From a virus, in IMG/VR virus record IMGVR_UViG_3300030106_006901, positions 1 to 33,459 of that record: a DNA stretch of 33,459 bases. One strand, written 5' to 3'. The position numbers and the translations under genes were made by a program. The notes beneath the pieces are model-generated. The model was not told where the DNA came from and searched no databases. It saw only the letters and a list, made by a program, of their open reading frames with translations. Positions 6-24,111 of the stretch are shown here, in pieces. Numbering within the stretch: position 1 is the first letter of the stretch; every line of letters starts with the position of its first letter.

Positions 6-583
<578 letters not shown>

Positions 584-587
<4 letters not shown>

Positions 588-762: not shown

Positions 763-1146
763 ATGAACTACGACAAGTACTCCAAGACGCTCGACGCCAT
801 CAAGGAGATCGCCGCCATCGACGCCATTAAGGAACTGTACCTCGAGATCGTACGCCTGCAGGCGCACAACGCCGCTCTCAAGACCCGGTGCGAGACGCTG
901 ACTAACCGGGTCAGTGTCCTCCGCACCGAGGTGGCCATCGCCAAGGGTAGCAAGCCCAAGCGGCTCGACTCCACAAGCGTGAACGACGCGGACCCCTGGT
1001 CGAAGCGAATGCTGGAGGGCTTGAAGGGCACCGATCACGAGTCGTGGTTGGCGCATGTGCTGGACGGCTTGGAGAGCAGCGATCTTGATCGTCGAATGGC
1101 CGCGCTGCGCGTACTTGAGCAGTATGAAGCCGGTCTCCCCACCTGA
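763..1146 (+). CDS. Hypothetical coiled-coil protein
   Basis: 127 aa, family not recognised. The ATG at 763 is preferred over longer upstream frames because AAGGA (751-755) lies 7 nt upstream and upstream codons in this frame look non-coding (Pro/Arg-rich). Residues about 10-65 are helical with leucine/valine heptad character (AIKELYLEIVRLQAHNAAL onward), likely a coiled coil for oligomerisation. The C-terminal half (about 70-127) is charged and probably helical. The stop overlaps the next start by one base (TGATG), so it is probably translationally coupled to the DUF4338-like gene. Confidence 0.7.
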   Translation: MNYDKYSKTLDAIKEIAAIDAIKELYLEIVRLQAHNAALKTRCETLTNRVSVLRTEVAIAKGSKPKRLDSTSVNDADPWSKRMLEGLKGTDHESWLAHVLDGLESSDLDRRMAALRVLEQYEAGLPT

Positions 1147-1730
1147 TGCTGCCTCTGTTCACCAAGCCGTTAGCGTTTGAGCCGGTCAGCACCTGGGATC
1201 CCTACGTGCTGACCATGATCCGCGCGCACTACACCGGGAGCCGGGGCGCACCCGTCGGCAAGAAACAAGCCTGGATCGTGACGGAACACGGACGCCGGGT
1301 CGGCGTCATCGGTCTGGGGGAGCCGTCGTTTAAGCTCGCCGCACGGCGACGGCTTGGCCTGGAAGACGCGCGCCCGCTGCCACGCACCGTGTCGTGCTTC
1401 ATCGCTCGCTTTGAAGGCCACACCACCCGCGCCGGAAACATCCTGCGAGCCTGGCACCCGGTCGCCGGTCAGCACTGGGAGGGCCGATACGGCTGGGCTC
1501 CCGTGCATTGGGAAACGATGGTTGGCAACGCCACCGAAGGTGGACGCACGCACCACGGGGGCGCGCTGGGCGCATGCTTCCGGCGCAGCGGCTACCGCTC
1601 CCTGGGCTGGACGACGGGCCGAAGCGCGCGACGTCCAGCAGGCAACACGCACGGCCCGCGCGTCTGGACCGACGCAGAGCCCAAGCTCGTCCTGTACCGT
1701 GGCCCGCTGGCCCGGCTCCCGGCGTCGTGA
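1146..1730 (+). CDS. DUF4338/DruA-like protein, possibly Mom/GNAT-like
   Basis: 194 aa. The C-terminal part carries the DUF4338 (DruA-type) signature: W111 then YGWAPVHWETMV (115-126, compare the family's G-x-P-x-x-x-ETFV), GACFRRSGYRSLGWTTGR (142-159, compare GTCYRAANW-x-x-x-G-x-T-x-G) and a closing PKLVLYRGPL strand (179-188, compare K-x-V-x-VYPL). DUF4338 proteins include DruA of the Druantia defence system and many phage and transposon-borne proteins; their chemistry is not settled to my knowledge. The N-terminal half has an HYTGSRGAPVG stretch (28-38) and a GVIGLG hairpin (53-58), which recall Mom-like GNAT enzymes of phages. That link is inference. It overlaps both neighbours by 1 nt and is coupled to the ligase-like gene. 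A DNA-base modification role is possible but unproven. Confidence 0.65.
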   Translation: MLPLFTKPLAFEPVSTWDPYVLTMIRAHYTGSRGAPVGKKQAWIVTEHGRRVGVIGLGEPSFKLAARRRLGLEDARPLPRTVSCFIARFEGHTTRAGNILRAWHPVAGQHWEGRYGWAPVHWETMVGNATEGGRTHHGGALGACFRRSGYRSLGWTTGRSARRPAGNTHGPRVWTDAEPKLVLYRGPLARLPAS

Positions 1731-2248
1731 TGTCGCTGCCCTTCCACCTGGTCAAGCCGATCCCCGGCGGGCGTCCCCTCAGTAGCTTCTACCGTTCGCT
1801 GGAGGCTGACCCGCAGTGGGTCTGCCAAGCGAAGCTCGACGGACAGCGCGCGCTCTGGGATGGCTCGCGCCTGTGGTCCCGGCGGGGCAACCTGCTGGAC
1901 CTGTGCGCGCCTGTGCTCGAGGAGCTTCAGCAGCACGCGCCGGGCGTCATGCTGGACGGCGAGTACCTCACCGAGGTGGGCACGTTCCGACGGCGTGCAC
2001 GCTTCGTAGCCTTCGACGTGCCCGGCCCCGGCTCCCTGCTTGAGCGCTGGTCCTTGCTGTCTGAACTGGTCGCGCCGATGGACCCGGACCTGGTCGAGGT
2101 GTGCCCGCACGGTGTGACGTGGGGCGACGTCGAGGCACAGGGCTGGGAGGGCGTGGTCTTCAAGAGGACCAACTCCCCCTACAGCCGCGCCATGCGGCCT
2201 AACAAAACCACCCCGGCGTGGATCAAGTTCCGCGCCATCAACTCCTGA
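1730..2248 (+). CDS. Minimal ATP-dependent ligase-type nucleotidyltransferase
   Basis: 172 aa with the covalent nucleotidyltransferase motifs of ATP-dependent DNA ligases in order: motif I KLDGQR (35-40, K35 the expected AMP-accepting lysine), SRRGN (50-54), motif III LDGEYL (75-80, E78), FVAFDV (92-97, motif IIIa-like), motif IV EGVVFKR (140-146) and motif V WIKFR (164-168). It ends four residues after motif V, so there is no OB-fold domain, normally needed for step 1 chemistry and DNA binding. In motif V the usual second lysine (K-x-K) is arginine (K166-F-R168). It could be a compact nick-sealing enzyme working with a partner, or another AMP- or GMP-transferring enzyme. The ATG overlaps the previous TGA (TGATG). 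Confidence 0.8.
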   Translation: MSLPFHLVKPIPGGRPLSSFYRSLEADPQWVCQAKLDGQRALWDGSRLWSRRGNLLDLCAPVLEELQQHAPGVMLDGEYLTEVGTFRRRARFVAFDVPGPGSLLERWSLLSELVAPMDPDLVEVCPHGVTWGDVEAQGWEGVVFKRTNSPYSRAMRPNKTTPAWIKFRAINS

Positions 2249-22117: not shown

Positions 22118-24111
22118 AGGTCACCTGCCCTCGGGATGCGGCCACCCTGTTCGACGAGCTTGGTTTCAAAACTCAAGCCCGACAGATGCAGGAAGGTCGG
22201 CTCGGTCACTTCAATGCGAACCTTAAAGCTCCAGCACGATACCGCATCGATGGCTTGTCGCCGCCAAAACGCTTGAGCACGCTGCAGGGTGTCGGTGCCG
22301 AGAACGAGAGCGCTCAACTGCTTAGAGAAGTCGATGCCGTGCAGCCTGAACGTGAACGACCTGCCGTTGATGCGGCGCTGGTTCTTCCACACCGTCACCG
22401 TCGCTGTGGCGTTGCTGGTTTCCAGAAGCCCCAGGATGATGCCCTGCAGGCTAAACACCGTGGGCCTGGCCATACGCAACCACGTCGTCTCGTAGACGTA
22501 CTTCTTGGCTGGGTTGGTCTGGTCAAGCACCTCGCGGTCCCAAACCCAAACGTCCTTGGTGTTCGGGCTGGTGTTTAGTCGCCCAGCGAACAGCAGCAGA
22601 TCACGCACATCGCGGGTCACGCACATGGACTGGATGGAGTACCCAATCTCGTACCGCTTCCACCCAACACCGTTGTAGGCGAGGATGTGGTTGCAGCGCT
22701 CGGTGCTGTCCAGCGCGACGGAGCAGTAGTAGGTGCCCTGGTACACCACCGCTGACGATTGCACCGCGCGGACGGGGTTCAACCGCTCCGTCTTCAGCAA
22801 CTCATGGTCGGTCAACAGCGGAACGAGCATGCCGTTGCGCGGGTCGTAGGTATGCCACCCGTCCTGGGTACGCCAAACCACGCGGGTGTCAGGTAAATGG
22901 CCGAGGGAACTCGCAGCCACGCATCCCACGGACTGCGAAATGGGGAGGCGCCGGAGTCCCTCGGCGTCGTCGATCACGGCATAAATGGACCTGCGAGTGA
23001 AGGCCCACAATTGACCACGAACGACCGCGAGAGCGGTGACGTCTCCATCGGGCATAGGCATCTGACGATGCGCTTGGTAGGTGCCTGGGAAGCCGGGGTC
23101 GCTCAGGTAGACGGTGTTTCCAGCGGCGACAGCAAGGCCGCCTTGGTAGGGCACCATGATCCCAAAACGCGGAGTCGGGATGATGTTGGGAATCGGCCCG
23201 CCCAGTTCGGCGTCCGAGTTGGGGTCGCTGTAGAACAGCGGACGTCGACCAGGAATGCGCTCAACTAAACGCACCTCGGGCCCCATGACGTGCTGATTGC
23301 CTGTTCGCACCAGACGGATAGCGGCGACCTTTTCTGGAGCCGACTCTCCTGTGGTGACCAAGAATTGCTTGAGCAGGTCGTCAACGCCGTAGGGATCTGC
23401 CACGTCCGGTGTGTTTTTCACCACCGCATACGGGTTAGCCTGTTGAATTTCAAGCCCAGCAAACGTCAACGTGCTGATGGGGCTTAGGTCACCGAAGTCG
23501 TCTTCGTATTGAACGCCCCAGCCCCAGTTGCCTTGCAGCAACGCACCGTACTGACCGTTAAGTGTGTCGCCAGCAGTTCCAACGCGCCCATGCCAAGAGT
23601 AGCCGTTCCAGTTCGGAGGGCGTTCAGCGTTGTTGCCGGGACGCGGACCATTCACCAGTGGTGCATCGGGACGCTGCCAGAAGCCCAGCAACTCGACGCG
23701 ACCGTCTGGCGTGATGATGCGCGGGTAGTCGATGCCGTTGCACCAGACGATGCGGTTGCCGACCACGGCAAACTGGTCTGGACCCCAGGCGCCCTGGTTC
23801 TCGTTGAGCCCCGTTTCGATGGCTTCCCAGTCGCGCTCCCAGCCTCGATGCCGATACAGCGTGGTGCCGGCTCGAGCAAGAAGCACCGACTGTCCGTCGA
23901 TGTCGGCCTGGAACACGCCGTGCATTTCGCCAAACGATGGCGATGCCTTCAACTCGTAGCGCACCGGGCCCCTGAGCGACCGGAGCGTGCCCTGCGGGGT
24001 TTCGACGAGGTTCTGAATGACCTCGGCAAGCGCAGTCGCTTGGTACTGGCTCTCGCTCTCGATGAGCGTGAAGCCAGGCTCGACGAGCTGCTTGTCGGCC
24101 CGGCTACCCAC
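22114..24111 (-). CDS. Beta-propeller tail nozzle candidate (tail tubular protein B-like)
   Basis: 665 aa from GTG at 24111. Repeated blade-like units with aromatic-Asp/Gly turns occur from about residue 60 to 480: VLLARAGTTLYRHRG, DQFAVVGNRIVWCNG, GGLAVAAGNTVYLSDPG, VVRGQLWAFTRRSIYAVI and CNHILAYNGVGWKRYE. Such short strands ending in YR/YLS/YAV with D-G are typical of the six- to seven-blade propellers in short-tailed phage nozzle proteins (T7 gp12 type). The last 170 residues are beta-structured. It lies directly downstream of the adaptor region, as in podoviruses. The fold is well suggested but the name is inferred. Confidence 0.65.
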   Translation of the reverse strand: MGSRADKQLVEPGFTLIESESQYQATALAEVIQNLVETPQGTLRSLRGPVRYELKASPSFGEMHGVFQADIDGQSVLLARAGTTLYRHRGWERDWEAIETGLNENQGAWGPDQFAVVGNRIVWCNGIDYPRIITPDGRVELLGFWQRPDAPLVNGPRPGNNAERPPNWNGYSWHGRVGTAGDTLNGQYGALLQGNWGWGVQYEDDFGDLSPISTLTFAGLEIQQANPYAVVKNTPDVADPYGVDDLLKQFLVTTGESAPEKVAAIRLVRTGNQHVMGPEVRLVERIPGRRPLFYSDPNSDAELGGPIPNIIPTPRFGIMVPYQGGLAVAAGNTVYLSDPGFPGTYQAHRQMPMPDGDVTALAVVRGQLWAFTRRSIYAVIDDAEGLRRLPISQSVGCVAASSLGHLPDTRVVWRTQDGWHTYDPRNGMLVPLLTDHELLKTERLNPVRAVQSSAVVYQGTYYCSVALDSTERCNHILAYNGVGWKRYEIGYSIQSMCVTRDVRDLLLFAGRLNTSPNTKDVWVWDREVLDQTNPAKKYVYETTWLRMARPTVFSLQGIILGLLETSNATATVTVWKNQRRINGRSFTFRLHGIDFSKQLSALVLGTDTLQRAQAFWRRQAIDAVSCWSFKVRIEVTEPTFLHLSGLSFETKLVEQGGRIPRAGDL

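Follow-up and report, generated by a model that had tools for sequence, protein, structure and literature searches.

A phage GNAT-fold relative of DUF4338/DruA proteins, probably working alone, overlaps a gene for a ligase-type core without an OB domain

The window analysed here, all 33,459 bases of the linear virus record IMGVR_UViG_3300030106_006901, carries a gene (gene 1) for a remote, divergent member of the DUF4338 (DruA) kinship, a GNAT, and this assignment is well supported. Overlapping it is a gene (gene 2) whose product is supported as a ligase-type nucleotidyltransferase core with motifs I–V and no OB domain. Relatives of gene 1 occur elsewhere without gene 2. We propose that gene 1 encodes a mobile, stand-alone acyltransferase and gene 2 a minimal ligase domain, the two being adjacent through packing; for this reading as a whole, we consider belief and doubt to be evenly balanced. 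The layout of the two genes is as follows.

1146–1730, plus strand: gene 1 (P0001), 194 amino acids, a DUF4338-like GNAT
1728–1732, plus strand: TGATG, in which the gene 1 stop and the gene 2 start share one base
1730–2248, plus strand: gene 2 (P0002), 172 amino acids, ATG at 1730, a ligase-type nucleotidyltransferase without OB domain

The two open reading frames and their 1-nt overlap are borne out as originally described. Both genes show a strong third-position bias (GC3 of 80% in gene 1 and 88% in gene 2), the same as in the other genes of the window. The further claim that the two are translated together is an inference from this layout. The upstream gene (763–1146) likewise shares 1 nt with gene 1, and overlaps of 1–8 nt occur in 14 of the 32 same-strand neighbour pairs in the window's gene list, so the shared base speaks only weakly for coupling. 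The window also holds the recombination genes YqaJ, RecT and RusA, plus an RNase H-like exonuclease. Its terminase shows only about 23% identity with T4-like cyanophage terminases, its portal had no match among phage records, and searches with terminase and portal found no closely related phage. In the first gene of the window (6–587), a run of about eleven threonines lies close to the N-terminus.

Searched alone, the gene 1 protein gave PF14236 (DruA, formerly DUF4338) as its sole Pfam match, at E 0.029 and 13.9 bits, below the cut-off of 27. Single-protein scans of viral contigs and bacterial genome contigs revealed no relatives, and neither did tblastn against phage records and plasmids. 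Homologues were found in viral contigs by a probe scan (L005/L006, one virus) and by a search with an alignment of gene 1 and L005/L006 (L007). The probes were a hand-written DUF4338 consensus and an invented variant, and our conclusions draw on the natural loci to which they led. The hand-written consensus scores as a PF14236 member; its match to PHROG 1384 (Mom) at 1.9e-4 was discounted, the sequence being non-natural. Gene 1 and these homologues, hereafter the trio, share the stretches STWDP, HYT, GKK.AW, IGLGEP, RYGW.PVHWET and G.TTGR, each homologue having 62% identity to gene 1 in the alignment and the tblastn matches 59–61%. The best PF14236 score among the three members, E 0.0031, still lies below the Pfam cut-off, and a trio scan of bacterial genomes returned no relative.

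Comparison of profiles made the kinship clear. The trio profile aligned co-linearly with real DUF4338 proteins (L010, L011) over 135 columns (hhalign 91.8%, E 7.3e-7), and pairwise local alignment scores against DUF4338 lay at z 5–8 above shuffles, a level reached by 0 of 1000 shuffles. With the trio HMM, DUF4338 was found at E 1e-5, but no Mom protein scored better than 0.8. Three features of gene 1 align as follows.

1227–1232, plus strand: His28-Tyr29, kept in the trio and lying opposite the HY of both DUF4338 and Mom in the alignments
1485–1523, plus strand: RYGWAPVHWETMV stretch, R114–V126, aligned with DUF4338 YG.....ETFV
1569–1622, plus strand: GACFRRSGYRSLGWTTGR, residues 142–159, aligned with DUF4338 GTCYKAANW..GQTKGR

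Gene 1 thus resembles DUF4338/DruA proteins (PF14236) in the HY near its N-terminus, in the W...YG...ETxV and GxC...G.T.GR patterns and in a GNAT-type fold. It differs in lacking the N-terminal region of about 110 residues found in full DUF4338 proteins, and in having FxxxG in place of YxAxN. The DUF4338 motif GTCY.AANW is not matched as such; gene 1 reads GACFRRSGY, in which Gly and Cys are kept, Tyr is replaced by Phe145 and Asn by Gly149. The strings originally quoted are present. The DUF4338 signature is real, although it falls below the Pfam cut-off and becomes clear only with the homologues. DUF4338 was called a GNAT domain in a 2024 study (PMC10853773). PADLOC models, run on genes 1 and 2, matched neither, and no Druantia partner (DruB–E) has so far been identified in the window. 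Elsewhere, two DUF4338 genes of the same kind lie in opposite orientation near both ends of a 42.7-kb viral contig, IMGVR_UViG_3300048503_000080 (L011, L012).

An AlphaFold2 model of gene 1 was built on an alignment of five sequences, with DUF4338 proteins included and no Mom, so the model is not independent of the DUF4338 kinship. Its mean pLDDT is 58. It is confident in places up to about residue 130, while residues 133–194, including the GACFRRSGYRSLGWTTGR motif, are unreliable; a single-sequence model was discarded at pLDDT 40. The order of elements, beta1-alpha1-beta2-beta3-beta4-alpha3-beta5, is the GNAT topology, and a GNAT fold is predicted with modest confidence. Nearly all PDB matches of the model were GNATs. 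The crystal structure of Mu Mom (8bv8) was matched at Z 5.7 with an rmsd of 3.8 over 126 residues, a top Z tied with LasI and SpeG, and matches at Z of about 5.7 may reflect a common fold and nothing more. A canonical acyl-CoA loop was not recognised by eye. The structural comparison with Mom, which had been proposed as a check, yielded the GNAT topology and the 8bv8 match on one side and, on the other, a tie with other GNATs in a modest model.

The sequence link to Mom passes through DUF4338. DUF4338 aligned with 11 phage Mom proteins over 150 columns (hhalign 78.5%, E 1.7e-5), pairing ETFVD...GTCYKAANW with SFAD...YQASN. Gene 1 itself had no match to PF25680 or PHROG 1384, the Mom families; the profile from the gene 1 side aligned with Mom at hhalign 15.7% and in the N-terminal part only, and direct comparison with Mu Mom stayed at the chance level given by shuffles. 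Asp149, Tyr159 and Asn163 (numbering of the 241-residue Mu Mom) are invariant in 11 of the 11 aligned Mom proteins. These Asp, Tyr and Asn residues near the C-terminal motif are common to Mom and DUF4338 and are replaced in the trio, which shows no conserved Asp, in a region where the alignment is uncertain, and has Phe145 and Gly149 at the other two positions. With these residues replaced, the chemistry and substrate of gene 1 may differ from those of both Mom and DUF4338. The clearest feature common to the trio and Mom in the joint alignment is His28-Tyr29.

Gene 1 is thus like Mu Mom in being phage-borne, in its GNAT fold, in the HY motif and in having DUF4338 as a link, and unlike it in showing no significant direct sequence similarity and in not retaining the three invariant residues. 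The original prediction of a tie to Mom stands by way of the DUF4338 alignment and the fold match, but finds no support in the direct sequence comparison, and three Mom-conserved positions are replaced; "Mom-like" is weakly supported, and as a distant relation only. The trio forms a small phage branch that lies above the cut-off in no profile library searched and whose best match is the defence-associated DUF4338/DruA GNAT family. Together with the DUF4338–Mom alignment, it suggests a continuum from a bacterial defence protein family to a phage DNA-modification enzyme.

Gene 2 matched Pfam DNA_ligase_A_M (PF01068) at 27.8 bits, above the cut-off of 26.2, and PHROG 114 at E 7.6e-12. NCBIfam LigE-type PRK09125 was matched at E 1.9e-12, which is below that model's cut-off, and solved DNA ligases at E about 2e-5. 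The ligase motifs were located in the sequence as follows.

1832–1849, plus strand: motif I, KLDGQR, residues 35–40, with the catalytic Lys35 (sequence and alignment)
1955–1963, plus strand: motif III, DGE, residues 76–78
2009–2017, plus strand: motif IIIa, AFD, residues 94–96
2147–2164, plus strand: motif IV, EGVVFK, residues 140–145
2222–2233, plus strand: motif V, IKFR, residues 165–168; the frame ends 4 residues on, at the expected start of an OB domain

The description of gene 2 as an OB-less protein with ligase motifs that ends at motif V is confirmed, motifs I, III, IIIa, IV and V all being present. The OB families PF14743, PF04679 and PF17879 had no match in the gene 2 protein, and the first two had none across the whole record. 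As in minimal ATP-dependent DNA ligases (LigE and phage types; PF01068), motifs I–V occur in order, and it is small DNA ligases that match best in NCBIfam and among solved structures. Gene 2 departs from these enzymes in having no OB domain and no motif VI, and a shorter core between the lysines. Compared with the phage ligase of L026, which retains an OB-sized C-terminal part, the DGE-to-FD stretch is 12–13 residues shorter and the distance from the motif I Lys to the motif V Lys 28 residues shorter. Arg takes the place of the second lysine in motif V. When viral contigs were scanned with gene 2 and phage records searched by tblastn, remote ligases were the only matches.

According to published work (PMC4609770), ligases cannot do without the OB domain and motif VI for adenylylation, and gene 2 may therefore lack ligase activity. 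Its product could be what is left of a ligase, decayed or repurposed and unable to seal nicks; the shortened core and the Arg in motif V are in keeping with such decay. The intact motifs argue against it, as do the open frame with its coding-like composition and the finding that separate T7 ligase domains retain duplex DNA binding (PMC6144786), and we regard loss of activity as possible but doubtful. Most likely gene 2 encodes an accessory enzyme for sealing or adenylylation, or else is a relic. In the proposed role, a minimal ligase adenylylation domain would probably adenylylate itself and seal or activate DNA ends, in partnership with the phage's own recombination genes (RecT/YqaJ/RusA). 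If gene 2 is active, about 170 residues without an OB domain would suffice for nick sealing or end adenylylation.

Whether the two genes belong together was judged from other viruses. Gene 1 is known from only three independent viruses. Its relatives lie on contigs of 28, 87 and 26 kb, of which the first two represent one virus (99.97% identical). The 28-kb contig and probably the 26-kb contig are incomplete; the 87-kb record is apparently complete, since its ends repeat 137 bp with a single mismatch, as expected of a closed genome. When the 35 window proteins were compared with the three contigs by tblastn, gene 1 was the only one matched. No ligase was detected in the 28- and 87-kb contigs by PF01068 or gene 2 search, or in the 26-kb contig by gene 2 search, and none adjoins the gene 1 relative in any of the three. 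Since gene 1 is present at about 60% identity in viruses that otherwise have no detectable common genes, it most likely works alone. The original prediction looked to other phages for conservation of the pair, which is absent in the few relatives, and the joint function it suggested is not supported, gene 1 being the sole gene common to the window and these three contigs.

The two genes might nevertheless form one functional unit, with DNA or DNA ends modified by the GNAT being sealed or activated by the nucleotidyltransferase. Overlap, common strand and a nucleic-acid processing role that would fit both products speak for such a unit. So does HGTV-1, a haloarchaeal tailed virus in which an annotated RNA ligase lies two genes downstream of a Mom-like gene (L037, 2492–4310). 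HGTV-1, however, is the only one of 14 other mom-like phage genes with an annotated ligase nearby (ten were first viewed with 400 bases on each side). The ligase relatives L024, L025 and L026, whose frames were read, have their full length, and at the single locus whose neighbours were read the ligase has no GNAT next to it. With no ligase detected in the contigs of the gene 1 relatives and overlaps so frequent in the window, we consider a joint unit very unlikely. A more specific version, confined to this phage lineage, would have gene 2 adenylylate a DNA end or small molecule for subsequent acylation by gene 1; we give this sequence of reactions hardly any credence, although if true it would be an undescribed DNA modification or end-protection chemistry. 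In the literature searched, no published description of a GNAT paired with an OB-less ligase was found. The adjacency is probably chance packing, not a new two-part system, and we propose that gene 2 adjoins gene 1 because the genome packs its genes tightly.

We therefore favour a reading of gene 1 as a GNAT-fold acyltransferase that is small and acts alone. It would represent a divergent phage branch of DUF4338 (DruA), distantly akin to Mom, and would move singly among phages that are otherwise unrelated. Its product would most likely bind an acyl-CoA-type donor and acylate a target, aiding the phage against its host. By analogy with Mom, whose activity is acyl modification of adenine in DNA, the bases of phage DNA are the leading candidate for this target, and a host or phage protein is the alternative. 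Acylation of a protein, such as host RNA polymerase or a defence component, would agree with the loss of the Mom-conserved positions and with the structural neighbours of gene 1, most of which are small-molecule or protein acetyltransferases. Precedents exist in the Rac GNAT of phiKMV-like phages, which acetylates host RNA polymerase (PMC7824862), and in a DUF4338 GNAT fused to DndF, for which protein substrates have been proposed (PMC10853773). On the other hand, the nearest characterised GNAT, reached via DUF4338, is the DNA modifier Mom, and DNA-acting genes lie near the relatives, namely a PD-(D/E)XK nuclease in L007 and an HNH endonuclease in L005. A protein target thus seems a tentative alternative, somewhat improbable on present evidence.

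Several further observations can be added. In all three viruses, a protein encoded downstream of it carries two CxxC-type, zinc-ribbon-like cysteine pairs (window, 2266–2610; L007, 7137–7391; L005, 7188–7631); these proteins lie at differing distances from the GNAT gene and have no common family match. The arrangement is of interest because in Mu the regulator of Mom is Com, a four-cysteine zinc finger protein; since two-CxxC proteins are common in phages, it is possibly chance. A tandem-like array apparently differs between two assemblies of what seems to be the same virus (G001, about 22338–23806; G002, about 66789–67948). Upstream of the GNAT relative in L007 (3272–5736), the nuclease is accompanied by a 423-residue protein without a Pfam match whose DPPY stretch is of the type known from N6-adenine methyltransferases.
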